Origin: Piscinibacter sp. XHJ-5
GTDB taxonomy: Bacteria; Pseudomonadota; Gammaproteobacteria; Burkholderiales; Burkholderiaceae_C
Assembly (NCBI RefSeq): GCF_029855045.1
Contig: NZ_CP123228.1
Coordinates: 6,076,001 to 6,140,000, forward strand
DNA length: 64,000 nucleotides
Reading direction: 5' to 3'
Positions 8,927-39,312 of the stretch are shown piece after piece (the stretch's first letter is position 1; each line of letters opens with the position of its first letter). The notes beneath the pieces were generated by a model, which was given only the letters and a program-made list of their open reading frames with translations, had not been told where the DNA came from and did no database searches. Both the position numbers and the translations under genes were made by a program.

Positions 8927-8944
8927 ATTGACGTATACGTCAAT
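8927..8944. promoter_or_regulatory. LiuR-like operator between can and the molybdenum hydroxylase gene
   Basis: Perfect 18-bp palindrome with core TTGACGTATACGTCAA. It lies in the 142-bp divergent region, 51 bp before the plus-strand gene at 8995 and 75 bp before can. On the minus strand the box TATGAT (8953-8948) lies 3 bp upstream of the palindrome, placing the operator at the expected transcription start of can, a repressor-like arrangement. The core matches the sites at 12995, 21935 and 39291. Confidence 0.8.
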
Positions 8945-8994
8945 TCGATCATACCGGACGCTGTGTACGATGGCCGCCCACGACGAGGTGCCTC

Positions 8995-11325
8995 ATGAGC
9001 GTTCAGTTCGATGCGGGTCGGTTCGGAAGCGGCAAGGCGGTGGCGCGCGTCGAGGACGCAGCGCTGCTCGCAGGACGCGGCCGCTTCACTGGCGATCTGG
9101 TCCTGCCGGGACAAACCCACTTGGTGTTCGTGCGATCGCCGCATGCCCACGCGCGCATCGCCTCGGTGGATGTGTCGCCCGCACAGGCGGTGCCCGGGGT
9201 GCTGGCGATCTTCACCGGCAGCGACCTCGCGCAAGCGGGCGTGAAGCCGATCCCCAACGTCCAGGGCTTCCGGCGCGCCGACGGCTCGCCGGGCGCCGCG
9301 CCGCCGCTGCTCGCACTGGCACGCGAGACGGTCCGCTTCGTCGGCGAGCCGGTGGCCGCCGTGGTGGCGTCGAGCCGCGAGGCGGCGCGCGACGCCGCGG
9401 AGGCGGTCTTCGTCGAGTACGAGGACCTGCCGGCGGTCGTCGATCCGGTCGCGGCCACCGCGCCCGGCGCGCCCCTGGTCTGGCCCCAGGCGTCCGGCAA
9501 CATCGCCGCGGAGTCGCGCTACGGCGACGCCGCCGCGGCCGATCAGGCCTTTGCCGGCGCGGCGCACGCCGTGTCGCTGGACATCGTCAACCAGCGGCTC
9601 GCGCCGAGTCCGCTGGAGCCGCGCGGCGTGCTGGCCGACGTCGATCCCGCGAGCGGGCGCCTGACGCTGAGCATGAGCAGCCAGATGCCCAGCGGCGTGC
9701 TGACCTCGCTGTGCCAGATCCTGCCGGGGCTGGCGCCGGAGCAGGTGCGCGTGACCGTCGGCGACGTCGGCGGCGGGTTCGGCATGAAGACCGGCATCTA
9801 TCCCGAGGACGTCGTCGTCGCGCACGCCGCGCGCGTGCTGCAGCGGCCGGTGAAGTGGCAGGCCGACCGTGTCGACGAGTTCCTCTCGGGCTATCACGGC
9901 CGCGACGTGGTCAGCCGCGCCGAGCTGGCGCTCGACGCCGAAGGCAAGGTGCTGGCGCTTCGGGTGCGCTCGCTCGCCAACGTCGGGGCCTATGCCGGCA
10001 ACGCGGGCGTGGCGATCGCGCTGCTCGTCGGCCCGTGGGTGTCCACCAGCATCTACGACATCCGCACCATCGATCTTCATCTGCGCGCCGTCCTGACCCA
10101 CACCACGCCGACCGGCCCCTACCGCGGCGCGGGCCGTCCGGAGGCGATCTACCTCATCGAGCGACTGTTCGACGCGGCGGCGCGCGAGATGAAGCTCGAC
10201 CCCGCCGAGCTGCGACGGCGCAACATGATCCGCCCCGATCAGATGCCGTACACGAGCCCGATGGAGCAGGTGTACGACAGCGGGCGCTTCGAGCAGATCC
10301 TGGACCGGGGACTGGCGCTGGCCGACTGGCACGGCTTCGCGGCGCGCCGCGAAGCCTCGCGCGTCCGCGGCCGGCTGCGCGGCCGCGGCATCGCGACCTT
10401 CCTCGAGTGGACCGGCGGCATGGCGCTGGACGAGCAGGCCGGCATCAACGTGCTGGCCGACGGCACCATCGAGATCCATTCGGCCACGCAGGCGATGGGC
10501 CAGGGCATCGTGACCAGCTACGCGCAGCTGGCGGTCGATGTGTTCGGCGTGCCGATCGAGCGCATCCGCGTGCTGCAGGGCGACACCGACCGCGCCCGCG
10601 GCTTCGGCAGCGCCGGCTCGCGCTCGCTGTTCACCGGCGGCGCGGCGGTGCACGTGGCCTCGCAGCGCACCGTCGAGCACGCGAAGGGGCTGGCGTCCGA
10701 CCTGCTCGAAGCAGCGGCTGGCGACATCGAGTACCGGGCCGGCCGCTTCAGCGTGGCAGGCACCGACATCGGCATCGGCCTGTTCGAGCTGGCCGCGCGG
10801 CAGCCCGAAGCGCGCATCTTCGTCGAGGCGGCGGCGAGCGCCTCGGCGCCGAGCTGGCCCAACGGCTGCCATGTGTGCGAAGTGGAGATCGATCCGGACA
10901 GCGGCGCCGTCGAGGTGATCTCCTACGCGTCGGTCAACGACATCGGGCGCGTCGTCAACCCGTTGATCGCCGGCGGCCAGATCGAAGGCGGCGCGGTCCA
11001 GGGCATCGGGCAGGCCTTGTGCGAGCAGGTGGTCTACGACCCGGACAGCGGCCAGATGCTGACCGGCAGCTTCATGGACTACGCGATGCCGCGTGCGGAC
11101 GTGAACCGCCTGTTCCGCACCGAGTTCGACACGTCCATCCCTTGCCTGACCAACGCGCTGGGCGTGAAGGGGGTCGGCGAGCTGGGCACGATAGGCGCGA
11201 CGCCGGCGGTGGTGAACGCCGTGATCGATGCGCTGGACCACGCCGGACTGGGCCGCGACGCGGAACGCATCCAGATGCCGGTGACGGCCGAGCGCGTGTG
11301 GCGAGCGTTGAACCGCTCCAATTAG
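8995..11325 (+). CDS. Molybdopterin-dependent hydroxylase large subunit (CoxL-like, form II / aldehyde oxidase type)
   Basis: 776-residue large subunit of the xanthine dehydrogenase/aldehyde oxidase/CO dehydrogenase family. Cofactor segments include [44 protein letters not shown] and, near the end, the catalytic-glutamate motif [20 protein letters not shown] differs from the Cys-containing active-site loop of genuine form I CO dehydrogenase, so oxidation of an aldehyde or N-heterocycle is more likely than CO oxidation. The FAD (medium) and 2Fe-2S (small) subunits that normally accompany it are absent from both flanks, so partners must be encoded elsewhere. A LiuR-like operator lies 51 bp upstream. 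Confidence 0.88.
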
Positions 11326-11335
11326 GGAGACGGCA

Positions 11336-12514
11336 TCACATCGTCTCGGCGAACAGCTCCCGGCCGATCAGCATCCTTCGGATCTCCGAGGTCCCTGCCC
11401 CGATCTCGTAGAGCTTGGCGTCGCGCCACAGCCGACCCAGCGGGTACTCGTTGATGTAGCCGTTGCCGCCGAAGAGCTGGATGCCCTCGCCGGCCATCCA
11501 GGTCGCCTTCTCGGCGCACCAGAGGATCACCGAAGCGCAGTCCTTGCGCACCTGGCGCACATGCCCGGCGCCCAGCATGTCGAGGTTCTTGCCCACCGTG
11601 TAGCAGAAGGCGCGCGCCGCCTGCAGCACGGTGTACATGTCGGCCACCTTGCCCTGCACCAGCTGGAACTCGCCGATGCTCTGCCCGAACTGCTTGCGGT
11701 CGTGGATGTAGGGCATCACGTTGTCCATCACCGACTGCATGATGCCGACGGGCCCGGCGGCCAGCACCGCGCGCTCGTAGTCCAGGCCGCTCATCAGCAC
11801 CTTGGCGCCGCCGTTGAGCGCACCCAGCACGTTCTCCGCCGGCACCTCGACGTTCTGGAACACCAGCTCGCCGGTGTGGCTGCCGCGCATGCCGAGCTTG
11901 TCGAGCTTCTGCGCGATCGAGAAGCCCTTCATGCCCTTCTCGATCAGGAAGGCGGTGACGCCGCGCGCGCCGAGCTCGGGCTCGGTCTTCGCGTAGACCA
12001 CCAGCGTGTCGGCGTCCGGGCCATTGGTGATCCACATCTTGGTGCCGTTGAGCACGTAGTGGCCGCCCTTGTCCTCGGCCTTCAGCTTCATGCCGATGAC
12101 GTCGGAGCCGGCGCCCGATTCGCTCATCGCCAAGGCCCCCACGTGCTCGCCGCTGATCAGCTTGGGCAGGTACTTGCGCCTCTGCGCCTCGTTGCCGTTG
12201 CGCTTGATCTGGTTGACGCACAGGTTGCTGTGAGCGCCGTACGACAGGCCGACCGAGGCAGAGGCGCGGCTGATCTCCTCCATCGCGATCATGTGCGCGA
12301 GGTAGCCCATGTTCGCGCCGCCGTATTCCTCGGACACGGTGACGCCCAGCACGCCGAGCTCGCCCATCTTGCGCCACAGGTCCATCGGGAACTGGTCGCT
12401 CCTGTCGATCTCGGCCGCGCGCGGTGCGATTTCGGCCTGCGCGAATTCGCGCACCGCGTCGCGCAGGGAGTTGATGTCGTCGCCGAGTTGGAAGTCGAGG
12501 CCGGGCAGGTTCAT
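11336..12514 (-). CDS. liuA: Isovaleryl-CoA dehydrogenase
   Basis: FAD enzyme oxidising isovaleryl-CoA to 3-methylcrotonyl-CoA in leucine degradation; 392 residues. Specific marks are [30 protein letters not shown], the catalytic glutamate about residue 247 in [15 protein letters not shown] (the helix-G position used by this subfamily), and glycine instead of glutamate in [18 protein letters not shown]. It follows the thioesterase gene by 12 bp and is therefore under the operator at 12995-13016. The rest of the liu pathway (methylcrotonyl-CoA carboxylase, methylglutaconyl-CoA hydratase, HMG-CoA lyase) is not here, so liuA is separated from its usual partners. Confidence 0.92.
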
Positions 12515-12526
12515 GGGGCAAGTCTC

Positions 12527-12979
12527 CTAGTGATGGATGCCGCCGCGGCCGCTCACCGACATCACGGTGGCCACCATCGTGGCGATGAGTTTCGGGCTGG
12601 CGCCGTCGGCGCCCAGCTCGAACGCGCGGCCGTCGACGACGCTGATCGTGCGTCCGGGCTTGACGACCTGGCCCTCGAAGCGGAAGCGCGGCCCGCGCGC
12701 AGGGGCCAGCAGGTTGATCTTGAACTCGATCGTCAGCACCGCCGCGTCGGCAGGCATCAGTGAAAACGCGGCATAACCGCAGGCCGAATCGAGTGCCGCC
12801 GACAGCATGCCGGCATGCAGGAATCCGTGCTGCTGGGTGAACTCCTCGCGGTGCGACATCGCCACGACGACACGCCCCTGCTCGACGCTCTCCAGCGTCG
12901 CGCCCAGCGTGCGCATCGCCGCCTGGCGCTCGAACGAGCCGCGAACGCGGGCGGCGAAATCGGGATCGGCGGCTTGCAT
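12527..12979 (-). CDS. PaaI-family hotdog acyl-CoA thioesterase
   Basis: Hotdog-fold protein of 150 residues. The family signature is FTQQHGFLHAGMLSAALDSACGYAAFSL, with a HGG-like turn (HAG) and an acidic residue (Asp of ALDSACG) at the usual active-site positions, followed by IEFKINLLAPARG. It likely hydrolyses a short or branched acyl-CoA, perhaps to relieve CoA trapping during isovaleryl-CoA oxidation. It is the first gene of a two-gene unit with liuA. Its ATG is only 15 bp downstream of a 22-bp operator, so the operator lies in the promoter/5' leader. Confidence 0.88.
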   Translation of the reverse strand: MQAADPDFAARVRGSFERQAAMRTLGATLESVEQGRVVVAMSHREEFTQQHGFLHAGMLSAALDSACGYAAFSLMPADAAVLTIEFKINLLAPARGPRFRFEGQVVKPGRTISVVDGRAFELGADGASPKLIATMVATVMSVSGRGGIHH

Positions 12980-12994
12980 GGCGGGGTCGTGCGG

Positions 12995-13016
12995 TTGACG
13001 TTTACGTAAACGTCAA
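12995..13016. promoter_or_regulatory. LiuR-like operator upstream of thioesterase-liuA
   Basis: Perfect 22-bp palindrome formed by two overlapping 16-bp units, TTGACGTTTACGTAAA (12995-13010) and its reverse complement (13001-13016). On the minus strand a TATGAT box (13021-13016) abuts it, so the operator covers the likely transcription start. It lies 15 bp upstream of the thioesterase ATG. The presence of two overlapping units suggests room for more than one dimer, which is inference. Confidence 0.85.
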
Positions 13017-13042
13017 TCATACCGAACCGCCGGACGCCGACC

Positions 13043-14281
13043 TCAGCGCCGCGGCAGCGCCTGCTCCAGGTCGGCCAACAGGTCGGCCCCCTCCTCCAGG
13101 CCGATCGACAGCCGCACCAGCCCGTCGGCGATGCCCATCTCGGCGCGTCCTTCGGCACCCGCCTCCCAGAAGATCGTCGGCGCAACCGGGATCACGAGCG
13201 TTCGCGTGTCTCCCAGTCCGGTGGCCTTGATCGGGATGCGCAGCCGGTCGATCGTCGCCAGCGTCGTCGCGGCGTCGCGCAGCTCGAACGACAGCAGCCA
13301 GGATCCCGCCGAGAAGTGCGCCTTCGCCAGCGCGTGCTGCGGGTGAGACTCCAGCATCGGATAGTGCACCGCGGCGACCGCCGGATGGCCGGCCAGGAAA
13401 CGTGCCACGGCGAGCGCCGTGGCGCTGGTGTGGGCCACCCGCAGCGCCGCGGTCTCGGCGCCCAGGCCGATCTGATGCGCCTGCTCGGACGACAGGGAGC
13501 CGCCCATGTCGCGCAGTCCCTTCTTGCGGAGCTGCGTCAGCCCCCATTGCGCCGGGTCGCCGCGGCGGTAGGCGGCGAAGAGGTTCGGCCAGCCTTGCCA
13601 GTCGAAGCCGCCCACGTCGGTGACGGCGCCGCCGAGCGCGGCCCCGTGGCCGGCGAGGGTCTTGCTCAGCGAATTGACCACCAGCCCGGCGCCGACGGTG
13701 CGCGGCCGGAACAGCAGCGGCGACGTGACGGTGTTGTCGACGACGTACAGCAGTCCGCGCCGGCGGCACAGGTCGCCGATGGCCGCGAGATCGGGCACCT
13801 GGGTACCCGGGTTGGCCACGGTCTCGACGAACACCATGCGCGTGCTCGGCCGCAGCGCCGCCTCGACGGCGGCCACCGAGCCCGCATCCACCTTGCTCAC
13901 CGCGATGCCCAGCTCGCCCAGCGTGCCGAACAGGCTGTTGGTGTTGCCGAACACGAAGCGGCTGCTGATCAGGTGATCCCCGGCGCGCAGCAGCGTGAGG
14001 AACACCGCGCTCAGCGCCGCCATGCCGCTGGCGAAGCACACCGTGCCGACGCCCTGCTCGAGCGCCGTGATCTTGCGCTCCAGCGCCGCCGTCGTGGGCG
14101 TCCCCTGGCGGGCATAGTTGAAGCCGCCCTTGACGGTGCCCTGGAACACGCCGATCAGGTCCTCGACGCGCTCGAAGCCGTACTGCACCGAGCTGTGAAT
14201 CGGCTTGTGCAGCCCGCCATGCTCGACGCCGCCGTGGCGATCGGAATGGACGATGCGAGTGGTGATGCCCTGCTCTGTCAT
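13043..14281 (-). CDS. Cys/Met-metabolism PLP-dependent enzyme (cystathionine gamma-synthase/beta-lyase family)
   Basis: 412-residue fold-type I PLP enzyme. Visible signatures are the phosphate-binding FASGMAALSAVFLTLLRAGDH, the PLP-contacting Asp in VVDNTVTSPLLFRP, the Schiff-base lysine in VVNSLSKTLAGHG and the carboxyl-binding Arg in VRLSIGLEEGADLLADLEQAL. It acts on cysteine/homocysteine-type substrates; whether it is a lyase, gamma-synthase or sulfhydrylase cannot be decided from motifs alone. Its stop is 26 bp before the LiuR-like operator of the downstream gene on the same strand, so that operator may also lie within its read-through transcript. Confidence 0.9.
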   Translation of the reverse strand: MTEQGITTRIVHSDRHGGVEHGGLHKPIHSSVQYGFERVEDLIGVFQGTVKGGFNYARQGTPTTAALERKITALEQGVGTVCFASGMAALSAVFLTLLRAGDHLISSRFVFGNTNSLFGTLGELGIAVSKVDAGSVAAVEAALRPSTRMVFVETVANPGTQVPDLAAIGDLCRRRGLLYVVDNTVTSPLLFRPRTVGAGLVVNSLSKTLAGHGAALGGAVTDVGGFDWQGWPNLFAAYRRGDPAQWGLTQLRKKGLRDMGGSLSSEQAHQIGLGAETAALRVAHTSATALAVARFLAGHPAVAAVHYPMLESHPQHALAKAHFSAGSWLLSFELRDAATTLATIDRLRIPIKATGLGDTRTLVIPVAPTIFWEAGAEGRAEMGIADGLVRLSIGLEEGADLLADLEQALPRR

Positions 14282-14329
14282 GGATGCTGCACTCCCGGCG
14301 CCTCGAGGGACGCCGAGAATAGCAGCGCC

Positions 14330-14734
14330 TCAGCGGGCGGCCATGCCGTTCAGCGCGGCTTGCATCGCCTTGACGCCGGCCGCCATGCGCTGGGCGATCG
14401 GCTCGCGCAGCGTTTCGGGCAGCAGGTCCGCGATCCACACCACCCGGCTGCGACCGTCGGCCTCCTCGAACACCTGGAACGACGCGTTGTGATGGCTCAT
14501 CGCCGTGCCGACCGCCGCGTAGGCGAGGCGCCGCCGCGCGTCATCGACGGTCACGATGAGCTCGCGCGCGACCAGGCCGTCGGCGAAGGTGACGATGCGC
14601 GCGCCTTCCTCCAGCTGCACATCGCGCACGAATCCCGGCGCAAGCCGTCGGTGCACCGCCCCGACGTCGCGAAACACATCCCATGCCGCTGCGGGCGGCG
14701 CGTCGACGACGAATTCCTCGACGATCGTGGCCAT
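14330..14734 (-). CDS. SRPBCC (START-like) family protein
   Basis: 134-residue polyketide-cyclase/START-like ligand-binding protein. It opens MATIVEEFVVDAPPAAAWDVFRDVGAVHRRLAPGF, the typical beta-alpha-alpha start of SRPBCC proteins, and ends with the long carboxy-terminal helix LREPIAQRMAAGVKAMQAALNG. ATG 14734 was preferred over one 15 bp upstream because GGGAAG lies at a proper distance. It follows the VOC gene by 11 bp in a minus-strand cluster with AraC and pirin. Ligand unknown. Confidence 0.85.
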   Translation of the reverse strand: MATIVEEFVVDAPPAAAWDVFRDVGAVHRRLAPGFVRDVQLEEGARIVTFADGLVARELIVTVDDARRRLAYAAVGTAMSHHNASFQVFEEADGRSRVVWIADLLPETLREPIAQRMAAGVKAMQAALNGMAAR

Positions 14735-16991: not shown

Positions 16992-19900
16992 CTAGGCCGC
17001 GACGTCCGCGCCCGCGTGCAGCACGGCGAGCAGGCGGTCAGGATCGACGGGCTTCGTCAGGTGGTGATCGAAGCCGGCCGCGACCGCACGGCGCTTGTCG
17101 TCTTCCTGCCCCCAGCCGGTCAGCGCGACGATTCGCGTGCGCGTGCCACCGGCCTCGCGCCAGCGGCGCGCCACCTCGTAGCCGTTCATGCCGGGCATGC
17201 CGATATCGAGCAGCACCACGTCGGGATCGAACGCTTCGCGATGCGTCAGCGCACCTTCGCCGTCGTGCGCGATGGCCACCTGGTGCCCGGACAGCTCCAG
17301 CATCATCGCGAGGCTGTCGGCGGCGTCACGGTTGTCGTCGACCACCAGCACGCGCTGCCGCGCCCCGGCAGGCGCCGGGCCGGCGGCCGGCGCCGGCACC
17401 ACCTGGGCTGGGGCCAGCGGCAGCCGCACGATGAATTCGCTGCCGCAGCCGACGCCGCCGCTGTGCGCCTCGATGCGGCCGCCGTGCAGGTCGACGAGCC
17501 CGCGCGCCAGCGCGAGGCCGATGCCCAGCCCGCCTTGCGAACGCTCCAGCGCAGGCGCGACCTGCGAGAACATCTCGAAGACGCGCGCGAGGTGCTCGGC
17601 GGCGATGCCGATGCCGTTGTCGCGCACCGTGATCGCTGCTTCGCCCGCCGCCGCGGCCTCCACCTCGATGCGGCCGCCGCGCGGCGTGTACTTGGCGGCG
17701 TTGTTCAGAAGATTCAGCAGCACCTGCGTGAGGCGGGTCGCATCCGCCTCCAGCCACACCGGCTCGGCCGGCAGCCGCACATCGAGGGTGTGGCCGGACG
17801 CCTCGATGAAGGGCCGCGCCGCCTCGATCGCTCCGTGCACGATGCCGGCCAGCGTGACCCGCTCCAGGCGCAGCTGGATCTTGCCGCGCGTGATGCGCGC
17901 GACATCGAGCAGGTCGTCGACCAGCCGCGTCATCTGCCGCACCTGGCGATCGATGACGTCGCGCGTCCAGCGCGTCTCCGCATCGGCCGGGTCCTTGAGC
18001 CGCAGGATCTCGAGCGCGTTGGTGATGGGCGCCAGCGGGTTGCGCAGCTCGTGCGCGAGCGTCGCCAGGAATTCGTCCTTGCGACGGTCGGCATCGGACA
18101 GCTCCGCATTCAGGCGACGCAGCTCCTGCTCGATGTGCTTGCGGTCGTGGATGTCGATGCCCAGCCCGTACAGCATCGTCGGCCGACCGTCGGCGCCGTA
18201 CACGGCACGCCCGCGGCCCTCCATCCAGCGCCAGTCGCCGCTCGCGTGATGGAAGCGGAACTCGACCGAGTAGTCCTCGCGCGTCTCCAGGGCGCGGGCG
18301 ATGGCCTGGGCCAATCGCGCGCGGTCCTCCGGATGGACCAGCAGGCGAAACGCGTCCACCCGGCCGCCGAAGGTGCCTGGCTCGAGGCCGAAGATCTCCT
18401 CCAGCTCGCGGCTCCACCAGACGCGATCGGCAATCAGGTCTCGCGACCACGCACCCATGCGCCCGCTGCGCATCGCCAGGGACAGGACGTCCCGGCTCTC
18501 GCGCAGCGCCGAGGCGGCGCGCGCATTCTCGACGGCGAACCAGCTGCGCTCCGCGAGCTGCTCCAGCAGCGCCACATCCTCGGCCGAAAAGGGCCGCGGC
18601 CGACTGTCGTGCAACACGAGCACCGCCACCAGGCGTGCGTCCTTGACCAGCGGCACGGCCAGCATCGCGCGGGTGTCGATGCGCTCGTACGCCGCCTGCA
18701 CCGCCGGCGCCGCCACGCGTGCATCGTCGACCCGGTCGGACATCGCCACGCTGCGCCCGGCGCGCAGCTGCTCGATGATCTGGGCGCCGTAGTCCTCGAG
18801 GCTGTGCCGCCCGGCCATGCTCGCCACTCCGTGCGTGTAGTCGCGGTGGATGCTGAAGGACTGCTGGTCGGCTTCGATCTCGCCGTAGGTGCAGCGGCTC
18901 GCGCCGAAGTGACGGCCGACGCGGCAGACGATCTCCCACTGCACCTGCACGGGGTCGCTCAGGCCGCGCGTCGCGTCGTTGATCTGCACCAGCAGCCGTT
19001 GCGACTCCTCGCCGCGGCGCAGCTCGTCGATCGCATGCTGGCGCTCCGACAGGTCCAGCGCGGCCTGCATGCCGGCGCGGCGCAGCGCCGTGCCGACGGC
19101 GTCGGCTTCGGCCAGGCCGCTGGGCGGAAGGTCGGGCACCACGTCGCGCTCCAGCTGCCGAGCCGCACGCTCGAGCATTGCAATCGGCTCGCGGATGCGT
19201 CGCGCGGCCCAGGTGGCCAGTGCGAGCGCGAAAGCGCCCAGCAGCGCGGCCGCCGCGGCGGCTCTCCAGGCCGCAGTGCGCGCGGCCTCGGTGAGGGCCT
19301 CTTGCGGGACGCCGATGATGAAGCTCCAGCCATGCACCGGCGACCGGCTGAAGAACGCCGACCGCAGCACGCCGTCGAGCGCGACCGCGTCGACGCGGCC
19401 GTCCGCCCTGGCGCGCAGCGCCGAACTGAGGGCCGCCGGCAGCGGCTGGCCGAGCCAGCGCTCGATGTCGGGCACCCGGGCGACGATGCGGTGCTCGCGA
19501 TCAGCGATCTCGGCCGTCCAGCCGGGCGGCAGGTGCTGACCCGCGACGATGGCCTGCAGCGCCGCCGGGCTGAAGACGACGCCCACGTTGTAGCGCGCCG
19601 GCGAGAAATGACGCTCCGGCGCGAACACCGCCAGCACCGGCTGCCGGGTCACGGGCCCGATGCGCAGGTTGCTCACCTCGACGCGGTCGCCGTCGGCGAG
19701 AGAGCGGTCCGGCGTCCAGCTGCGCTTGGGCAGCGGCGTGCCGAACGGCACGGAGGTGTTCAGGAGCTGGTCGTCGTGGTCGACCAGCACGATCCAGCTG
19801 CCGGTGTCTTGCGTCGCCGCGCGCGCCTGCGCGTGAAACGCCTGCCAGTCGCCGGCCGCGATGGCCGGCGAGCTGGCCAGCGTGCGTGCGACCGCGGCGC

Positions 19901-20075
19901 GCTTGTCGAACTCGCGGTCCACCACCAGCGACAGCGCCCGCACCGTCTCGCGCAGCCGCTGTTGCGAGGATTCGGCTTCGCGCAGATAGGCCGACGACAC
20001 GACCCACAGCACCAGGCCGGCGGTCGGCAGCAGCACGGCCAACACCAGCAGCAGCAGTCGTGCACGCAGCGTCAT
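16992..20075 (-). CDS. Hybrid sensor histidine kinase with extracytoplasmic sensor, GAF, PAS and receiver domains
   Basis: 1027-residue membrane sensor. An amino-terminal helix (LLLLVLAVLLPTAGLVLWVV), a periplasmic dCache-like region of roughly 230 residues and a second helix (AAAAALLGAFALALATWAARRI) are followed by a HAMP-like linker, a GAF domain (LVQINDATRGLSD...), a PAS/PAC domain (WSRELEEIFGLEPGTF) and the kinase. Phospho-acceptor His675 is in LATLAHELRNPLAPITNALEIL, with ATPase boxes NLLNNAAKYT, DNGIGI and GGLGIGLALARG. The receiver domain has phospho-acceptor Asp957 (VVLLDIGMPGMNGYE). There is no DNA-binding output and no cognate regulator beside it. The signal is unknown. Confidence 0.93.
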   Translation of the reverse strand: MTLRARLLLLVLAVLLPTAGLVLWVVSSAYLREAESSQQRLRETVRALSLVVDREFDKRAAVARTLASSPAIAAGDWQAFHAQARAATQDTGSWIVLVDHDDQLLNTSVPFGTPLPKRSWTPDRSLADGDRVEVSNLRIGPVTRQPVLAVFAPERHFSPARYNVGVVFSPAALQAIVAGQHLPPGWTAEIADREHRIVARVPDIERWLGQPLPAALSSALRARADGRVDAVALDGVLRSAFFSRSPVHGWSFIIGVPQEALTEAARTAAWRAAAAAALLGAFALALATWAARRIREPIAMLERAARQLERDVVPDLPPSGLAEADAVGTALRRAGMQAALDLSERQHAIDELRRGEESQRLLVQINDATRGLSDPVQVQWEIVCRVGRHFGASRCTYGEIEADQQSFSIHRDYTHGVASMAGRHSLEDYGAQIIEQLRAGRSVAMSDRVDDARVAAPAVQAAYERIDTRAMLAVPLVKDARLVAVLVLHDSRPRPFSAEDVALLEQLAERSWFAVENARAASALRESRDVLSLAMRSGRMGAWSRDLIADRVWWSRELEEIFGLEPGTFGGRVDAFRLLVHPEDRARLAQAIARALETREDYSVEFRFHHASGDWRWMEGRGRAVYGADGRPTMLYGLGIDIHDRKHIEQELRRLNAELSDADRRKDEFLATLAHELRNPLAPITNALEILRLKDPADAETRWTRDVIDRQVRQMTRLVDDLLDVARITRGKIQLRLERVTLAGIVHGAIEAARPFIEASGHTLDVRLPAEPVWLEADATRLTQVLLNLLNNAAKYTPRGGRIEVEAAAAGEAAITVRDNGIGIAAEHLARVFEMFSQVAPALERSQGGLGIGLALARGLVDLHGGRIEAHSGGVGCGSEFIVRLPLAPAQVVPAPAAGPAPAGARQRVLVVDDNRDAADSLAMMLELSGHQVAIAHDGEGALTHREAFDPDVVLLDIGMPGMNGYEVARRWREAGGTRTRIVALTGWGQEDDKRRAVAAGFDHHLTKPVDPDRLLAVLHAGADVAA

Positions 20076-20149
20076 GTGCCGATGATGCCTTCGCGCCGAG
20101 GCGCCCGGCGCAGGCATTTCACCGAATGTCCGTAGACTGCCGACCCTGC

Positions 20150-21481
20150 ATGCACCCCACCGACCGACCCGCCGCCCCCTCTTTCCGCGAGGCCTTCCTT
20201 TTCTGGCTGAAGCTCGGTTTCATCAGCTTCGGCGGGCCGGCCGGGCAGATCGCCGTGATGCACCAGGAGCTCGTCGAACGGCGGCGCTGGATCTCGGAGC
20301 GACGCTTCCTGCATGCGCTGAACTACTGCATGGTGCTGCCGGGACCCGAGGCGCAGCAGCTCGCCACCTACATCGGCTGGCTGTTGCACCGCACCTGGGG
20401 CGGCATCGTCGCGGGCGGGCTGTTCGTGCTGCCGTCGCTCGTCATCCTGATCGCGCTGTCGTGGATCTACCTCGCCTTCGGCCATACACCGCTGGTGGCC
20501 GGCCTTTTCCACGGCATCAAGCCTGCGGTGACGGCGATCGTGCTGCACGCGGCGCACCGCATCGGGTCGCGCGCGCTGAAGAACGGCGCGCTGTGGGCCA
20601 TCGCCGCCGCCTCCTTCGTGGCCATCTTCGTGCTGAATCTGCCCTTCCCGCTGATCGTGCTGGCCGCCGGGGTGATCGGCGCGATCGGCGGGCGCTTCGC
20701 GCCGCAGCGCTTCGCCATCGGCGCCAACCATGCCGGCGAGGCAGCCAGCGCTGGCGCAGCCGTCATCGACGACGACACGCCGACGCCGCCGCATGCGCTG
20801 CATCGCTGGAGTCGCTTCGCGCGCCTGGCGACGGTCGGCCTGCTGCTGTGGGCCATCGCAATGGGCGCGCTGCTGGCGGCGGTCGGCTGGGACGGCACGC
20901 TGACCCAGATGGGCTGGTTCTTCACCAAGGCCGCGCTGCTGACCTTCGGCGGCGCCTATGCCGTGCTGCCCTACGTGTACCAGGGCGCGGTGGAGCAGCA
21001 CCACTGGCTCAGCGCGCCGCAGATGATCGACGGCCTGGCGCTGGGCGAGACCACGCCCGGGCCGCTGATCATGGTGGTGGCCTTCGTCGGGTTCGTCGGC
21101 GGCTGGACGCGCCAGGTGCTCGGCCCCGACGTGCTCGCGGCGTCCGGGGCGCTGGCGGCGGCGGTCGTCACCTACTTCACGTTCCTGCCCTCGTTCGTCT
21201 TCATCCTGCTCGGCGGGCCGCTGGTCGAGACCACCCACCGCAACCTGAAGTTCACCGCACCGCTCACCGCGATCACGGCGGCCGTCGTCGGTGTCATCCT
21301 CAACCTGGCGCTGTTCTTCGCCTACCACGTGCTGTGGCCGCAGGGGCTGTCGGGGCGCTTCGATGCAGTCAGCGCGCTGATCGCCGTCTCCGCGGCGATC
21401 GCGCTGATCCGCTTCAAGCGCGGCGTGATGGAGGTGATCGGCGCGTCCGCGGCGCTGGGCCTGCTGGCCTCTCAGCTCTGA
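20150..21481 (+). CDS. chrA: Chromate transporter, long-chain ChrA family
   Basis: Polytopic membrane protein of 443 residues, with two homologous CHR domains: about residues 8-190 (FREAFLFWLKLGFISFGGPAGQIAVMH, RFLHALNYCMVLPGPEAQQLATYIGW) and about 230-440 (FFTKAALLTFGGAYAVLPYVYQGA, GLALGETTPGPLIMVVAFVGF). The repeated FGG and PGP motifs are diagnostic. It exports chromate or takes part in related anion transport. An in-frame ATG at 20126 would add eight residues; neither start has a strong ribosome binding site. It is divergent from the sensor kinase and convergent with the MerR gene. Confidence 0.93.
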   Translation: MHPTDRPAAPSFREAFLFWLKLGFISFGGPAGQIAVMHQELVERRRWISERRFLHALNYCMVLPGPEAQQLATYIGWLLHRTWGGIVAGGLFVLPSLVILIALSWIYLAFGHTPLVAGLFHGIKPAVTAIVLHAAHRIGSRALKNGALWAIAAASFVAIFVLNLPFPLIVLAAGVIGAIGGRFAPQRFAIGANHAGEAASAGAAVIDDDTPTPPHALHRWSRFARLATVGLLLWAIAMGALLAAVGWDGTLTQMGWFFTKAALLTFGGAYAVLPYVYQGAVEQHHWLSAPQMIDGLALGETTPGPLIMVVAFVGFVGGWTRQVLGPDVLAASGALAAAVVTYFTFLPSFVFILLGGPLVETTHRNLKFTAPLTAITAAVVGVILNLALFFAYHVLWPQGLSGRFDAVSALIAVSAAIALIRFKRGVMEVIGASAALGLLASQL

Positions 21482-21487
21482 CGGTCC

Positions 21488-21919
21488 TCAGGCCTTCTTG
21501 CGCGCGCCTTCGGCGAGCAGCCGCCGGGCTTCCTTCTCGTGCACCCGCACCTCGTCGAGGTTGGCATGCAGGTCGGCCAGCTGCTGCTCGAGCTGCGCAC
21601 GGTGCGCCGCCAGCACCGAGAGGAACTTGCGCAGCTGGGCCTCGGTGTCCCTCGGCGACTCGTACATGTCGACGAGCTCCTTGACCTCGGCCAGCGTCAG
21701 GCCCAGGCGCTTGCCGCGCAGCGTGAGCTTGAGCCGCGTGCGGTCGCGCGCCGTGTAGACGCGGTTGCGTCCGCTGCGCTGCGGCGAGAGCAGCCCGCAG
21801 TCCTCGTAGAAGCGGATCGCGCGCGTCGTGAGGTCGAACTCCTTGGCGAGCTGGCTGATCGTGTAGGTGGCCGCCGGCGCAGGCGACACGTGGGCGACAG
21901 CAGGGGCAGGCATGGGCAC
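21488..21919 (-). CDS. liuR: MerR-family transcriptional regulator, LiuR-like
   Basis: 143-residue MerR protein. The winged helix-turn-helix is at about residues 18-60 (YTISQLAKEFDLTTRAIRFYEDCGLLSPQRSGRNRVY), with the characteristic DRTRLKLTLRGKRLGLTLAEVKELVDMYES and a coiled coil thereafter (LRKFLSVLAAHRAQLEQQLADLHANLDEV). The carboxy-terminal region lacks the cysteines of metal sensors, and the whole resembles LiuR, the repressor of leucine/isovalerate catabolism genes in proteobacteria. A matching operator lies 15 bp upstream of its start, implying autoregulation. Three further copies of the operator occur in the window. The symbol rests on this resemblance and on the regulon context. Confidence 0.85.
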   Translation of the reverse strand: MPMPAPAVAHVSPAPAATYTISQLAKEFDLTTRAIRFYEDCGLLSPQRSGRNRVYTARDRTRLKLTLRGKRLGLTLAEVKELVDMYESPRDTEAQLRKFLSVLAAHRAQLEQQLADLHANLDEVRVHEKEARRLLAEGARKKA

Positions 21920-21934: not shown

Positions 21935-21956
21935 TTGACGTTTACGTAAAGTGTAA
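21935..21956. promoter_or_regulatory. LiuR-like operator between liuR and the MBL-fold gene
   Basis: One intact 16-bp unit, TTGACGTTTACGTAAA (21935-21950), identical to the left unit of the 12995 site. The position of a second half-site is degenerate and instead reads TACACT on the minus strand (21955-21950), a plausible -10 box for liuR. The intact unit would cover the transcription start of liuR. The plus-strand MBL gene starts 13 bp beyond 21950, so it is either leaderless or read from a promoter inside liuR. Confidence 0.78.
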
Positions 21957-21962: not shown

Positions 21963-23018
21963 ATGAATCCCCTCGAACACGAGCTGAGCTACCCGCTGGG
22001 CGAAGCGCTGCCCGAGCCCGGCGCGACGCTGGAGATCGCGTCCGGCGTGCGCTGGGTCCGCATGGCGCTGCCGTTCGCGCTGGACCACATCAACCTCTGG
22101 CTGCTGCGCGACGACGTCGACGGCCGCGCCGGCTGGACCATCGTCGATTGCGGCATCGCCAACGACGCGACGCGCGCGGCCTGGGAGCAGGTGTTCGCGC
22201 AGGCGCTCGAAGGGCTGCCGGTGCTGCGCGTCATCGTCACCCACATGCACCCCGATCACATCGGGCTTGCGCACTGGCTCACCGAGCGCTGGCAATGCCG
22301 CATGTGGATCAGCGCCACCGACTTCAACGCGGCGACGCTCGCCAGCGCGTCGACCACCGGCTTCGGCGGCGGCAGCGCGGCGCGCTTCATGGCCAGTCAC
22401 GGTCTCACCGATCCCGAAGCGGTCGAGAAGATCAAGGCGCGGTCCAACTACTACGCGAGCATGGTGCCCAAGGTGCCGGACCGCTTTCGCCGGCTGCTCG
22501 GCGGCGACACCCTGCGCATCGGCGGGCGCGACTGGGTCTGCCACGTCGGCTACGGCCACGCGCCGGAGCACATGTCGCTGCACTGCCCGTCGCTCGGGCT
22601 GCTGATCTCCGGCGACATGGTCCTGCCGCGCATCTCCACCAACGTCAGCGTGATCGACATCGAGCCGGAGGCGAATCCGTTGCCGCTGTACCTCGCCTCG
22701 ATCGAGCGGCTGCGTTCCTTGCCCGCCGACACGCTGGTCCTGCCTTCGCACGGCCGGCCGTTTCGCGGGCTGCACCAGCGCATCGATCAGCTCGAGGCCC
22801 ACCACGACGAGCGCTACGCCGAGCTCATCGCCGCCTGCGACAGCGGGCCGAAGAGCGCGGCCGATCTGCTCGGCGTGCTGTTCAAGCGCAAGCTCGACCT
22901 GCACCAGACCACCTTCGCCATGGGCGAGGCGATCGCGCACCTGAACGCGCTGTGGCTGGCCGGGCGGCTGCGCCGGTCGCTCGACGACGATGGGGTGTAC
23001 CGGTTCTCGTCGGCGTGA
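21963..23018 (+). CDS. MBL-fold metallo-hydrolase
   Basis: 351-residue metallo-beta-lactamase-fold hydrolase. The metal motif THMHPDHIGLAHWL supplies His-X-His-X-Asp-His; further ligands are His in CHVGYGHAPEHMSLHCPSLGLLISGDMVL (including the bridging Asp) and in LPSHGRPFRGLHQR. The carboxy-terminal extension (FKRKLDLHQTTFAMGEAIAHLNALWLAGRLRRSL) resembles the winged-helix tail of LACTB2-like thioesterases. Divergent from liuR with a shared operator, it may hydrolyse an acyl-CoA or related thioester of the same pathway; that role is inference. Confidence 0.88.
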   Translation: MNPLEHELSYPLGEALPEPGATLEIASGVRWVRMALPFALDHINLWLLRDDVDGRAGWTIVDCGIANDATRAAWEQVFAQALEGLPVLRVIVTHMHPDHIGLAHWLTERWQCRMWISATDFNAATLASASTTGFGGGSAARFMASHGLTDPEAVEKIKARSNYYASMVPKVPDRFRRLLGGDTLRIGGRDWVCHVGYGHAPEHMSLHCPSLGLLISGDMVLPRISTNVSVIDIEPEANPLPLYLASIERLRSLPADTLVLPSHGRPFRGLHQRIDQLEAHHDERYAELIAACDSGPKSAADLLGVLFKRKLDLHQTTFAMGEAIAHLNALWLAGRLRRSLDDDGVYRFSSA

Positions 23019-33929: not shown

Positions 33930-33957
33930 GGCACTCCCACGCGGCGACATCCCCGAC

Positions 33958-35682
33958 ATGGCGGACCCCAAGGACACGACCAGCTTTTTCCGCAAGGTCG
34001 TGAAGTTCGTGGCCAATCCGGCCACCGAATGGAGCGACCTGGAAGCCCCCTCGCAGGAAGCGCGGGAGACCGAGTTCGCCAAGTCCGAGCTGAAGGCGAT
34101 GATCGAGCGCAAGCGGCGCAACGACTTCGTCCGCAAGCGCGAGTTCGACATGCTGCGCAAGGTGCGCCGCGAGGGCCTGTCCAGCGAGCAGCTTGCCGCG
34201 CTGGGCGGCTCGTCGAAGATCGACGACTCCGAGGCGCGCATCGACAGCGGCGCCAAGCCTGACAGCGGCGTGAAGGCCAAGATCGACGAGATCGAGCAGC
34301 AGATGGTCGGCGACGGCTATCGCGGCTCGCAACGCCGGGCGCCGGAGTTCTACAACGCCCGCACGCAGCCGGCTCCGATGGACCACGCCGCGCCGCGCGC
34401 CTCCGCGGCCGCCCCGCTGGGCCCGCCGGTCGACGGCGCGCGCGTGGTCGACGCCGGGGTGCCCAGCGATCGCGGCAAGCCGGCGCCTGCGGCGCCGGCA
34501 GCCGCGGTGATGAGCCCGGGCATGTCGCCGCTGACGCCGCTCACGCTCGACGCCAATACCTCCGACTTCGCCAACCCGTTCGCGGTCGAGGTCAGCGAAG
34601 TCGCGCACGATCCCGAGCTCGACGAGGCGGTGATTGCTTTCGCCAACGCCGACTTCGAGCTCTGCGAGCAGTCGCTGTCCACGCTGACCGCGATGACCGG
34701 CAGCCGCGCCGGCCATGCCGAGACGTGGCTGGTGCTCTTCGACCTGTACCGCGCCATCGGGCAGCAGCCGAAGTTCGAGAGCCTGGCGCTCGACTACGCG
34801 CAGCAGTTCGGCTGGTCCGCACCGCAATGGTTCTCCATGCCCCGGCTCGTCGCCGAGGCGGCGAGCCACGAAGACCGTCCGAAGGCCGCGCGCGTCGAAG
34901 GCCAGGTCGGCTGGGTCTGTCCCGATTTCGTCGACTCCGACGCCGTCGCCAAGCTGCGCTCGCAGACGCTGCAGATGCCGCTGCCGTGGGTGTTCGACTG
35001 GGGCGCGCTGCGCAACATCGATCCTGAGGCCTGCGCGCGCATGAGCGAGCTGTTCCGCGGCTGGATCGGCCAGAAGCTCGACATGCGATGGCTCAATGGC
35101 GAACGCCTGTTCACCGTGCTGAGCGACGCGGCGCCCACCGGGGTGCGCGACGCGGATCCGGCGTACTGGCAGCTTCGCCTCGACGCGCTGCGCATGGCCA
35201 ATCGCCCCGACCAGTTCGACGAAGCCGCCATCGACTATTGCGTCACGTACGAGGTGTCGCCGCCGTCGTGGGAGCCGGCGCAGTGCCAGGTGCGCATCAG
35301 CGGTGGCGAGCAGAGCACCAGCTCCCCGCCCCTGTCGGTCGTGAGCGAGGTCTCCACCAGCTTCGTCGAATCGCAGCTCACCGAAGACACCGGCATGGTC
35401 CAGGTCGCGAGCGTCGAGCTCTCCGGACAGTTGGTCGGCGACATCGGCGACACGCTGACGAAGCTGAACGGCGAGCTCGGCAGCGCGTCCATCGTCAACG
35501 TCTCGTGCGCCAAGCTGATCCGCGTCGATTTCATCGCTGCCGGCGACCTGCTGAACTGGGTGCTTGCCCGGCGCGGCGAGAACCGCACGGTCGGCTTCGT
35601 CGAGGCGCACCGCCTGGTCGCGCTGTTCTTCGGCGCCATGGGTATCACCGAGCACGCCAGGGTCAAGGTACGCACGGTTTAA
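33958..35682 (+). CDS. STAS-domain protein of unknown function upstream of hslV
   Basis: 574 residues with no signal peptide. A charged amino-terminal region (FFRKVVKFVANPATEWSDL...RKREFDMLRKVRREGL) is followed by an Ala/Pro linker, a middle part that looks TPR-like (FANADFELCEQSLSTLTAMTGSRAGHAETWLVLFDLYRAIG) and a carboxy-terminal STAS-like domain (VQVASVELSGQLVGDIGDTLTKLNGELGSASIVNVSCAKLIRVDFIAAGDLLNWVLARR). Similar proteins are, from memory, common beside hslVU in Burkholderiales. It starts 29 bp after dksA and may share its transcript. No function can be assigned. Confidence 0.85.
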   Translation: MADPKDTTSFFRKVVKFVANPATEWSDLEAPSQEARETEFAKSELKAMIERKRRNDFVRKREFDMLRKVRREGLSSEQLAALGGSSKIDDSEARIDSGAKPDSGVKAKIDEIEQQMVGDGYRGSQRRAPEFYNARTQPAPMDHAAPRASAAAPLGPPVDGARVVDAGVPSDRGKPAPAAPAAAVMSPGMSPLTPLTLDANTSDFANPFAVEVSEVAHDPELDEAVIAFANADFELCEQSLSTLTAMTGSRAGHAETWLVLFDLYRAIGQQPKFESLALDYAQQFGWSAPQWFSMPRLVAEAASHEDRPKAARVEGQVGWVCPDFVDSDAVAKLRSQTLQMPLPWVFDWGALRNIDPEACARMSELFRGWIGQKLDMRWLNGERLFTVLSDAAPTGVRDADPAYWQLRLDALRMANRPDQFDEAAIDYCVTYEVSPPSWEPAQCQVRISGGEQSTSSPPLSVVSEVSTSFVESQLTEDTGMVQVASVELSGQLVGDIGDTLTKLNGELGSASIVNVSCAKLIRVDFIAAGDLLNWVLARRGENRTVGFVEAHRLVALFFGAMGITEHARVKVRTV

Positions 35683-35764
35683 GCTGTGCGCCGCGGGGTG
35701 CGAGCCCTGCTCTTTGTCGATCCCGCGGGCTTGAACCCCGCATCCCCCGCCTGCAGATACCCCG

Positions 35765-36298
35765 ATGGAAAACTACCACGGCACCACCATCGTCAGCGTG
35801 CGCCGCGGCAACGTCGTCGCCCTTGGCGGCGATGGCCAGGTGACGCTAGGCAACGTCGTCGTCAAGGCCACGGCCCGCAAGGTGCGCAAGCTCTACCGCG
35901 ACCAGGTGGTGGCCGGCTTCGCCGGCGCCACCGCCGACGCCTTCACGCTGTTCGAGCGCTTCGAGGCCAAGCTGGAGAAGCATCAGGGGCACCTGGTGCG
36001 GGCTGCCATCGAGCTGACCAAGGATTGGCGCACCGACCGCGTCCTGCGGCGCCTGGAGGCGATGCTCGCCGTCGCCGACAAGGAAGCCTCGCTGATCATC
36101 ACCGGCAATGGCGACGTCCTCGAGCCCGAGCACGGCATCATCGCCATCGGCTCGGGCGGCGCCTATGCGCAGGCCGCGGCGCGCGCCCTGCTCGAGCACA
36201 CCGAGCTGTCCCCGGCGGACATCGTCAAGAAGTCGCTCGAGATCGCGGGCGAGCTGTGCATCTACACCAACCAGCATCACACGGTGGAAGTCCTATGA
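35765..36298 (+). CDS. hslV: ATP-dependent protease subunit HslV
   Basis: Proteasome-like peptidase of the HslUV (ClpQY) complex, 177 residues. After processing, the threonine of GTTIVSVRR (residue 7) becomes the nucleophile; GDGQVTLGN, and the lysine of [10 protein letters not shown] follow the family. The carboxy end, [11 protein letters not shown], fits the HslU-binding tail. hslU follows 76 bp downstream. Confidence 0.96.
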
Positions 36299-36374
36299 GC
36301 CCCCACGCTCACCTTGTTCACTGCCAACCGGGGCGGCCGCTCAGCGCGTTTCGAGCGGCCGGGCGGGCGCCGAG

Positions 36375-37709
36375 ATGAAGTCGTCCATGACCCCCCAGGA
36401 AATCGTCTCCGAGCTCGACCGCCACATCGTCGGCCAGGGCAGCGCCAAGCGCGCCGTCGCCATCGCGCTGCGCAACCGCTGGCGCCGCCAGCAGGTCGAC
36501 GAAAAGCTGCGCGGCGAGATCACGCCGAAGAACATCCTGATGATCGGCCCCACCGGCGTGGGGAAGACGGAGATCGCGCGACGCCTGGCCAAGCTCGCGG
36601 ACGCGCCGTTCATCAAGGTCGAGGCAACCAAGTTCACCGAGGTCGGCTACGTCGGCAAGGACGTCGACTCGATCGTGCGCGACCTCGTCGACATGGCCGT
36701 CAAGCAGGAGCGCGAAAGCGCGATGCGCCGTCAGCGCGCGCGTGCCGAAGATGCGGCCGAAGACCGCGTGCTCGACATCCTGGTGCCGCCACCGCGCAGC
36801 GACTTCGGCCTGTCGCCCGGCACGTCGACCGACAATGCCGCCCGCCAGACGATGCGCAAGCGATTGCGCGAAGGCACGCTCGACGACAAGGAGGTCGAGG
36901 TCGATGTCGCCGACGCCAAGCCGGCGCTCGAGATCATGGGGCCGGCCGGCATGGAGGACATGGCCGAGCAGCTGCGCGGCATGTTCGCCAACCTGGGCAG
37001 CGGCAAGCGCAAGCTGCGCAAGATGAAGATCGCCGAGGCGATGAAGCTGCTCGTCGATGAAGAAGCGGCCAAGCTGGTCAACGAGGACGAGATCCGCGCC
37101 GAGGCGCTCGCCAACGCCGAGCAGAACGGCATCGTGTTCATCGACGAGATCGACAAGGTCACCTCCCGGTCGGAGCACGGCGGCGCGGAAGTGTCGCGTC
37201 AGGGCGTGCAGCGCGACCTGCTGCCGCTGGTGGAGGGCACCTCGGTCAACACGAAGTACGGCATGGTCAAGACCGACCACATCCTCTTCATCGCCTCGGG
37301 TGCGTTCCACCTGACCAAGCCGAGCGACCTCATTCCCGAGCTGCAGGGACGCTTTCCGATCCGCGTCGAGCTGGGTTCCCTCAGCGTCGGCGACTTCGAG
37401 GCCATCCTCACGCAAACCCACGCCAGCCTGGTCAAGCAGTACCAGGCGCTGCTGGCCACCGAAGGTGTCACGCTGGAGCTGCGCCCCGACGGGATCCGTC
37501 GCCTCGCGCAGATCGCGTACGACGTCAACGAGCGCACCGAAAACATCGGCGCGCGGCGCCTGTCGACCGTGATGGAGCGGCTGCTCGACGAGGTGAGCTT
37601 CGACGCCCCCAACCTGGGCGGCCAGACCGTCTCGCTCGGGGCGGCCGAAGTCGATGCCAAGCTTGCGGAGCTGGCGAAGAACGAGGACCTCTCGCGCTAC
37701 ATCCTGTAG
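36375..37709 (+). CDS. hslU: ATP-dependent protease ATPase subunit HslU
   Basis: AAA+ unfoldase of HslUV, 444 residues from ATG 36375 (a second ATG at 36387 gives [17 protein letters not shown], also plausible). Walker A GPTGVGKT is at about residues 58-65, Walker B is in [10 protein letters not shown], the pore motif is [16 protein letters not shown], and the sensor/arginine-finger region is [24 protein letters not shown]. The terminal DLSRYIL is the tail that docks into HslV. Confidence 0.96.
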
Positions 37710-37720
37710 CGCGACGGCGC

Positions 37721-38488
37721 TCACATCGCCAGGCGGTGCGACTGCAGCGCCAGCAGCCCTTCGAAGATGAGCGTGTCGACCGTCTCGAACGGCAGGTCGG
37801 TGATGGGTGCGAGCTTCACCGCCGCGCCGCCGCTCATCAGCAGCACCGGATCCTGACCCGTGCGCGCGAGCAGGCGCCGGTGCATGCGCTCGATGGCACC
37901 AGCGATGGAGTGCGCGCCGCCGCTCATCAGCGCGTCGCTGGTGTTGGTGGGGAAGTCTCGCACGTCGCCGGTGGGGGCCTTGAGCCCGGCGGTGCCCATT
38001 TCGAGCGCACGCAGCATCAGGCCGAAGCCGGGCAGGATGAGGCCACCGAGGAAGCGTCCGGTCCCGTCGAGCGCATCGACCGTGACCGCCGTGCCCACCA
38101 TCACCACCAGCGCCGGCCGCGGCGCGCCCATGGCCAGCACGCGATGCCGTGCGCCGATCAGCGCCACCCAGCGGTCGGTGCCCAGCCGGTTCGGATGGTC
38201 GTAGCCGTTGGTGACGCCGGCCGCATGCGGGGACGACACGACCCAGCGCGGCGCGATGTCCCAGATCTCCATCTGCTCCTCGACGCGCCGCTTGACGCCT
38301 TCGCCAGCGACGATGCTGCCCAGCATGCTGGCCGGCGGATCGAGGTCCTTCCACTCGGTGTCGGCGAGGTTGTCGATCTGCTCGAGGAACACCGCGCCGT
38401 GGGCCATCAGGCCCGCACCGGGTTGAGGCGAGGCGTACAGCGCCCACTTGAGGCGGGTGTTGCCGACGTCGACGGCGAGGAAGCTCAT
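37721..38488 (-). CDS. coaX: Type III pantothenate kinase
   Basis: First enzyme of coenzyme A synthesis, 255 residues. Motifs are [10 protein letters not shown] (phosphate 1, residues about 6-15), [12 protein letters not shown] with the pantothenate-binding [32 protein letters not shown] (phosphate 2) and SGGAA. It ends 11 bp from the convergent hslU. The birA gene that often precedes coaX in related genomes is not here; a conserved hypothetical protein lies immediately upstream. Confidence 0.94.
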
Positions 38489-38498
38489 CGGCGGCAAT

Positions 38499-39146
38499 CT
38501 AACTCGCCGGCTGAACCGCGTCGCGGCGAGGGATGAGCAGATGCCGCACATGGCGCAGCGTCTGCTGTGCCGAAAGCGTGCGGTAGGGCTTCATGATGCG
38601 CGCCTCGACCTCGTCGATCAGCTCGGCAAGCTCGCTGCGGGTGCGGGCGCGGCGCAGGCGAAGCAGCGTCAGCGATCCGGCGACCGGCGCCTCGGCCCGC
38701 AGCGCGCGAATGAGGATGCCGCGCGCTTCCTCGAGCGTGGCGTCGGCTCCGGCCTCCAGCGCATCGAAGTCGGTGGGCCGGGAGACGTCCGACGGGTGGC
38801 CGCTGTTGAGGGTGTCGTCGAGCACCGACTCGGGCTGCAGGGTGCGCGCGGCAGGCAGCACCGATTCGATCGCGTCCAGCGGAATGTCGACGTGCTGCAA
38901 GGAGGCATGGAGCGGGCCTGGCGACTCCGCCGGCCGCGGCAGCACGATGAGCCCGAGCTCGAGCAGGTCGCCGAAGCAGCTCTCGCTGGCGCCGGCCTGG
39001 CGGGCCAGGGTTTGCACCTGCTCGGCGGTGCGGCGTCCGTCCACCAGCAGCAGCACGGTGCGATGTCGCTGGCTGAGGCGGCGCTGGCGGCTGCTGAGCT
39101 CGGCCTGGCCGTCGGAGGTCTTGACGGGGATGAGTGGGGTCGCCAC
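38499..39146 (-). CDS. Conserved hypothetical protein
   Basis: 215 residues from the GTG at 39146, chosen because AGAAGGAGA lies nine or so bases upstream; an ATG 30 bp further up lacks such a site. The amino end ([52 protein letters not shown]) looks like a compact helical fold; the carboxy end ([33 protein letters not shown]) is helical and basic. No signal peptide or membrane helix. It lies 10 bp upstream of coaX, so it is probably co-transcribed. No function recognised. Confidence 0.8.
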
Positions 39147-39290
39147 GAACGCTTTCTCCTTCTCTGCGGCGCGCAACCCGCATGGTCACCGGCGGCGCGC
39201 GCTGCAGTCCCAACCGGCGCGATTGTGAGGCCAAAGCCCTGCCGATGGCAGCGCGGCAATCCATCGGATGTGCGACCGGGATACACTGTG

Positions 39291-39312
39291 CAATTGACGT
39301 ATACGTCAATTG
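39291..39312. promoter_or_regulatory. LiuR-like operator upstream of ppk2-icmF
   Basis: Perfect 22-bp palindrome centred on the core TTGACGTATACGTCAA (39294-39309), flanked by CAA and TTG. The core is identical to the 8927 site. A TACACT box (39282-39287), the same -10-like sequence as at liuR, lies 3 bp upstream, so the operator again covers the expected transcription start. It is 25 bp ahead of the TTG start of ppk2. Confidence 0.83.

Follow-up and report, generated by a model that had tools for sequence, protein, structure and literature searches.

Predicted LiuR operators and their target genes in a 64-kb stretch of the Piscinibacter sp. XHJ-5 genome

LiuR proteins are repressors of a known type that govern the catabolism of leucine and related amino acids, and their regulon in proteobacteria was reportedly described for the first time by Kazakov et al. 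in 2009. According to three further sources, LiuR regulons number 103 in a table and 104 in the accompanying text (PMC5343134), LiuR of Shewanella is a MerR-family repressor that also controls aceBA (PMC3223726), and LiuR of P. aeruginosa is a repressor counteracted by a putative protein that responds to leucine or citronellol (PMC8871633). In this report, we describe a predicted regulon of this kind in Piscinibacter sp. XHJ-5, in a stretch of 64,000 nucleotides, hereafter the window (G000:C1:6076001-6140000), from a genome of 6,648,202 bases in one contig. The window carries a gene for a MerR-family protein at 21488-21919 and four near-identical palindromes, one of which lies in the promoter of that gene. 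Judged by tree and neighbourhood, the gene is an ortholog of liuR, and the four palindromes are very probably binding sites of LiuR; the set of sites is a real and conserved regulon, of a known kind with a few local additions.

Like the proteobacterial LiuR regulon of two of these sources (PMC5343134, PMC3223726), the set described here combines a MerR-family regulator with branched-chain amino acid catabolic genes and a link to the glyoxylate shunt. The link, however, is aceK here and not aceBA, and the carbonic anhydrase, the polyphosphate kinase 2 (PPK2)-IcmF pair and the metallo-beta-lactamase (MBL)-fold hydrolase that belong to the set may be further differences. In liuRABCDE of P. aeruginosa, a LiuR repressor likewise accompanies ivd (liuA) and the genes of methylcrotonyl-CoA carboxylase (MCC) (PMC8871633); in the present genome, by contrast, no site accompanies the MCC genes, which are found some 4.6 kb beyond the window, and the partner of ivd is a thioesterase gene.

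The 16-bp core TTGACGTWTACGTMAA was found by pattern search of the window as an exact match at 8928-8943, 12995-13010 (plus strand), 13001-13016 (minus strand), 21935-21950 and 39294-39309, that is, at all four places where the first-pass annotation had seen it. That annotation had described a core at 12995-13010 with its mirror at 13001-13016; both matches are there, and they form one perfect 22-bp palindrome instead of two elements. With up to three mismatches allowed, the window holds ten matches over both strands, at five positions of which two overlap, against a mean of 0.12 in shuffled sequence. Throughout the genome, at up to two mismatches, there are six matching places, four in the window and the others at 3,051,337 and 2,458,775; the two outside the window precede an HSD10-type dehydrogenase gene and etfBA. 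The reversed pattern, used as a control, gives no match in the whole 6.65-Mb genome at the same threshold. By the gene calls, all six sites are intergenic, each with a gene of the set starting 13-76 bp away.

Several of the genes behind these sites, namely ivd, the HSD10-type dehydrogenase gene and icmF, belong to branched-chain acyl-CoA catabolism. By its matches among PDB sequences, the dehydrogenase at 11336..12514 is a true isovaleryl-CoA dehydrogenase (Table 1). The dehydrogenase at one distant site is of the 3-hydroxyacyl-CoA dehydrogenase type II (HSD10) kind by PDB sequences, with NCBIfam models below cut-off, and the other distant site precedes etfB, etfA and an acyl-CoA dehydrogenase gene. 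The site at 8928, which lies 52 bp from the start of a divergent CoxL-like gene, is followed on the opposite side by same-strand genes for carbonic anhydrase, AceK, thiolase, a MaoC-like dehydratase, a short-chain dehydrogenase/reductase (SDR) and an acyl-CoA dehydrogenase, in this order. Behind the site at 39294, PPK2 is the first gene and IcmF the second. A GTG start at 39134 would place this site within the PPK2 frame; the PPK2 of two relatives (G091 and G096) begins, by homology, 29 bp past the site, as does the gene called here. The PPK2 might supply nucleotide for the IcmF GTPase, and an acyl-CoA or a related ester is a possible substrate of the MBL-fold hydrolase. All the genes that the first-pass annotation listed as targets are present in the set, and its list had passed over PPK2, the divergent MBL-fold gene and the SDR, as well as the HSD10-type dehydrogenase and etfBA outside the window.

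The regulator scores above the cut-offs of PF13411, PF00376 and PF09278, which mark a MerR-type DNA-binding domain; with respect to LiuQ, of the TetR family, a TetR-type domain is absent from it, and only the MerR domains were found. Those of its 120 listed relatives that carry a name come from Piscinibacter, Albitalea and Variovorax. In ten loci of other orders of the class, fetched from 32 same-class genomes with a hit, the homologues are 45-55% identical to the window regulator; ivd, liuB and liuC cluster with the homologue in all ten, and liuD and liuE in nine each, the absences falling close to where a fetched stretch ends. Two of these loci (L173 and L174) have some 3 kb between the regulator and ivd, and a related 16-mer stands at the regulator in seven. 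In the tree, the window class joins the regulators of ivd-liu clusters at 97/94 support, with a paralogue class falling outside; the tree is midpoint-rooted with several long branches, is unsure in its deeper part and places no named P. aeruginosa sequence. The resemblance to LiuR that had been proposed from family knowledge is thus upheld by orthology in the tree, by the ivd-liu neighbourhood, by the conserved operator in the promoter of the regulator gene, by ivd as a target, and by the dependence of site number on the presence of the regulator.

This dependence was seen among 150 genomes of the family, where homologues found with the window protein at E < 1e-44 were called orthologs. An ortholog is present in 123 genomes (this one included), a paralogue-grade homologue only in three, and neither in 24. 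Forward matches at up to two mismatches average 7.2 in the 123 and 1.0 in the 24 (one-sided Mann-Whitney p 5e-14, an indicative value that overstates independence, given the relatedness of the genomes and the incompleteness of some of the 24), and the three paralogue-only genomes have 6, 7 and 1, while the reversed pattern gives 1.8 and 2.0 (p 0.84). From the 150, 16 relatives were chosen, favouring clear orthologs and low control counts, and the places matching the strict pattern TTKACGTNNACGTMAA were fetched, which with this genome amounted to 69 sites in 17 genomes. Against a gene set drawn from the window, the distant places and the liu operon of G091, 66 of the 69 lie at a set gene, at most 160 bp before its estimated start or at most 20 bp past it. 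The three sites outside this assignment are one in G018, one in G129, at which no gene was found, and one in G142, which overlaps the estimated regulator start beyond the distance rule. About 300 bp on from the G018 site (L133, G018:C1:5147600-5155600) begin distant homologues of IcmF and of a carboxylase beta subunit, genes that perhaps encode methylmalonyl-CoA mutase and propionyl-CoA carboxylase.

The same promoters recur across these 17 genomes. A strict site stands at the regulator gene in 13, in keeping with the site at 21935-21950 that had been noticed in the regulator's own promoter here, at the HSD10-type dehydrogenase in 11, at etfB, the thioesterase and the MBL-fold hydrolase in 10 each, directly at IcmF in eight, directly at ivd in five, at PPK2 in four and at liuB in three. 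The MBL-fold hydrolase gene and liuR share an operator in 10 genomes, and PPK2 and then icmF follow one operator in four (the window, G091, G096 and G114), with a further 34% PPK2 match beside the dehydrogenase site of G114.

Read by eye, the sites stand close to -10-like boxes. TATGAT on the minus strand abuts the site at 12995-13016 and ends 4 bp before that at 8928, and TACACT overlaps the edge of the 21935 site towards the MerR gene and ends 6 bp before the 39294 site; the boxes that had been described as abutting are therefore found in abutting or overlapping positions or 4-6 bp before the site. When read in the direction of the target gene, the thioesterase sites of nine of ten genomes share their first T with a -10-like hexamer, of which it is the final base (CATAAT, GATAAT, TATGAT, TATCAT, TAGAAT or TACAAT, by eye); the tenth has TGAAAT. 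At the etf and PPK2 sites, most such hexamers end 5-7 bp upstream, the outliers ranging from 4 to 14 bp (again by eye). Because such a box adjoins the site or ends shortly before it, the operator appears to cover the start region, a position that fits repression, and this agrees with the published view of LiuR (PMC3223726, PMC8871633).

The search pattern requires two ACGT cores and not a third. A third core lies exactly one 6-bp step away in 45 of the 69 sites, one of which has four, and no extra core was found at offsets 3-5 or 7-12 in any of them. Three or more cores occur in 14 of 15 thioesterase/ivd sites and two cores in nine of ten etf sites (Fisher p 5e-5, which counts inherited orthologous promoters and not independent events). 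The third ACGT core in a 6-bp step is possibly new. Since a shift of 6 bp turns the next register slightly over half a helix turn, two dimers might be accommodated.

We infer binding by a dimer, repression, a release signal and the operon transcripts from these observations, and regard it as highly probable that the MerR gene encodes LiuR, which would bind the ACGT-core arrays and repress a branched-chain acyl-CoA catabolic set. A LiuR dimer would bind arrays of 16 bp (two cores) or 22 bp (three), in which ACGT cores recur every 6 bp and whose ends are TTG/CAA or TTT/AAA. With the arrays on or just downstream of the -10 box, bound LiuR would block RNA polymerase, and a signal would release it when branched-chain acyl-CoA catabolism is called for. 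Release would de-repress liuR and the MBL-fold hydrolase gene, thioesterase-ivd, PPK2-IcmF, the HSD10-type dehydrogenase gene and etfBA, and also the carbonic anhydrase-aceK-thiolase-MaoC-SDR-acyl-CoA dehydrogenase genes. A more far-reaching proposal, which we put forward tentatively and consider doubtful as a whole, is that LiuR reads the ACGT hexamer array in overlapping 16-bp registers on near-opposite helix faces, by one or two dimers, and so grades repression by promoter; that the regulon couples branched acyl-CoA breakdown to bicarbonate, to polyphosphate-driven nucleotide supply for IcmF and to the isocitrate branch point; and that a split operon has been re-wired with a second operator.

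Several observations weigh against LiuR control of this set. A ACGTNNACGT element is lacking from the liuBCDE operon of this genome (L169), and no 16-mer in L169 scores 6 or more with the site matrix, in which only positions 3, 8, 9 and 14 are free and the others are fixed by the search pattern. A strict site stands at liuB in only three of the 16 relatives, and none was found in the stretch around the regulator gene of G007 (L147); three of the ten loci of other orders show no site; -35 boxes are not clear to the eye at these promoters; and the relatedness of the 150 genomes, given above, belongs here as well. The true liu operon of G091 (L171) bears a 22-bp operator, and the missing site before liuB(CDE) is not taken as defining because the regulon membership of single operons varies between lineages.

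The bare liuBCDE operon, targets such as etfBA, aceK, IcmF and acyl-CoA dehydrogenase, and the existence of a paralogue class in the family would suit a different role for the MerR protein, as a LiuR-like paralogue governing general short-chain acyl-CoA or fatty acid oxidation, with leucine control exerted elsewhere. We consider this unlikely, as ivd itself is a target of the window regulator, which groups with the ivd-liu regulators, and a second close homologue was not found in this genome, where the next homologue of the regulator has E 3.3e-7 and 30% identity and the paralogue class is missing. The paralogues are likewise MerR proteins, but form a separate clade, 37-49% identical to the window LiuR, with other neighbours: in nine of ten loci (L043-L052, fetched from 21 listed), they stand away from leucine genes and adjoin an atu-type carboxylase cluster, no such gene being found in L049, and in five of the ten an ACGT palindrome, here TTAA-centred, lies between paralogue and cluster. 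The cluster is labelled atu for its gene order, namely carboxylase beta, dehydrogenase, hydratase and carboxylase alpha. The paralogue-side carboxylase beta of G033 is 54% identical to that of the atu-like cluster in the present genome and 50% to its liuB product, and the dehydrogenase of the same atu-like cluster is 66% identical to its paralogue-side counterpart. That the paralogue class might be the true LiuR, as an adjacent carboxylase cluster could suggest, was considered and rejected in view of the atu-type cluster in nine of ten loci and of the window class beside ivd-liu. The atu-type cluster of this genome (L170, G000:C1:1564000-1580000) occurs without the second MerR class and without a site there.

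Metal-sensing MerR activators have their operator in a long promoter spacer, and a regulator of this type would activate from between -35 and -10. The window protein shares with the CueR/CadR type an N-terminal MerR DNA-binding domain and a similar length, and its top profile matches are to CueR/ZntR-type models, all far below cut-off (at most 54.2 bits for copper, zinc and cadmium sensor models against cut-offs of at least 143). Its sites, however, lie by eye on or after a -10-like box and not in a promoter spacer, and conserved cysteines are lacking; because the sole cysteine (residue 41; Gln is the most frequent residue at this alignment position) is not conserved, metal sensing is unlikely, and activation in the manner of these proteins seems to us very improbable. 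Near-identical copies within one 30-kb stretch might also be a repeated element or chance, an explanation we find scarcely credible given the 0.12 matches expected by shuffling, the same element before the same genes in 16 other genomes with differing flanking DNA, and a genome-wide scan, run as a check, that finds sites only before these genes.

One part of the predicted LiuR regulon is arranged differently in this genome. In 13 of 15 relatives with ivd and carbonic anhydrase (aceK in G096) in one fetched stretch, these genes are 21-137 bp apart, and in the other two 895 and 1,405 bp. The gap in the window is 2,487 bp and is occupied by the opposite-strand CoxL-type gene; the corresponding stretches of the 15 relatives yielded no homologue of it above 50% identity. 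The detached carbonic anhydrase-aceK half bears its own perfect palindrome at 8928, and the presence of an operator on a half separated from the first promoter argues that its control is under selection. The split of the ivd/aceK operon, with a separate operator for the aceK half, is possibly new.

Table 1. Predicted operators and genes of the window (positions counted from its first nucleotide)
Feature	Position	Strand	Remarks
LiuR operator (predicted)	8928..8943	.	Perfect 16-bp palindrome TTGACGTATACGTCAA; 76 bp upstream of carbonic anhydrase-aceK operon
LiuR operator (predicted)	12995..13016	.	Perfect 22-bp palindrome, three ACGT cores; 16 bp upstream of thioesterase-ivd operon
LiuR operator (predicted)	21935..21950	.	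Between liuR (-) and MBL-fold gene (+)
LiuR operator (predicted)	39294..39309	.	Perfect 16-bp palindrome; 29 bp upstream of PPK2-icmF
LiuR, MerR-family regulator	21488..21919	-	143 aa, GTG start as called
Hotdog-fold thioesterase (4HBT)	12527..12979	-	
Isovaleryl-CoA dehydrogenase (ivd/liuA)	11336..12514	-	Five best PDB matches are isovaleryl-CoA dehydrogenases (E at most 1.5e-155); the next is at 3.1e-86
CoxL-type molybdopterin oxidoreductase	8995..11325	+	Separates ivd from carbonic anhydrase-aceK; below all NCBIfam cut-offs; uncertain member of the regulon
Carbonic anhydrase	8193..8852	-	NF007756 above cut-off; PF00484
AceK, isocitrate dehydrogenase kinase/phosphatase	6391..8193	-	One-base overlap with carbonic anhydrase gene
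Thiolase, acetyl-CoA C-acyltransferase	5189..6394	-	TIGR01930 above cut-off
MaoC-like dehydratase	4702..5184	-	
SDR oxidoreductase (PRK06953 type)	4040..4705	-	
Acyl-CoA dehydrogenase	2902..4032	-	Final gene of presumed operon
MBL-fold metallohydrolase	21963..23018	+	Divergent from liuR; 13 bp from site
Polyphosphate kinase 2	39338..40177	+	PPK2_rel_1, above cut-off; start codon uncertain
IcmF, fused isobutyryl-CoA mutase/GTPase	40190..43474	+	NF045497, 1957.7 bits vs cut-off 1500

Other genes lie among these features. The gene of a Cys/Met-metabolism pyridoxal phosphate enzyme (PRK05939 type, 13043-14281) reads towards the 12995 operator from just upstream on the same strand and, by position, is outside the control of that operator. 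The halves of the regulon are separated by the frames of a hybrid sensor kinase and of a chromate transporter (16992-20117 and 19886-21481), both without sites.

The analysis maps, with good support, the regulon of a widely conserved regulator, and corrects the gene behind one of its sites, which is PPK2. It also raises the questions of why carbonic anhydrase and AceK accompany isovaleryl-CoA dehydrogenase, whether the number of cores sets the strength of repression, and which signal is perceived by a MerR protein of 143 amino acids without an obvious ligand domain.

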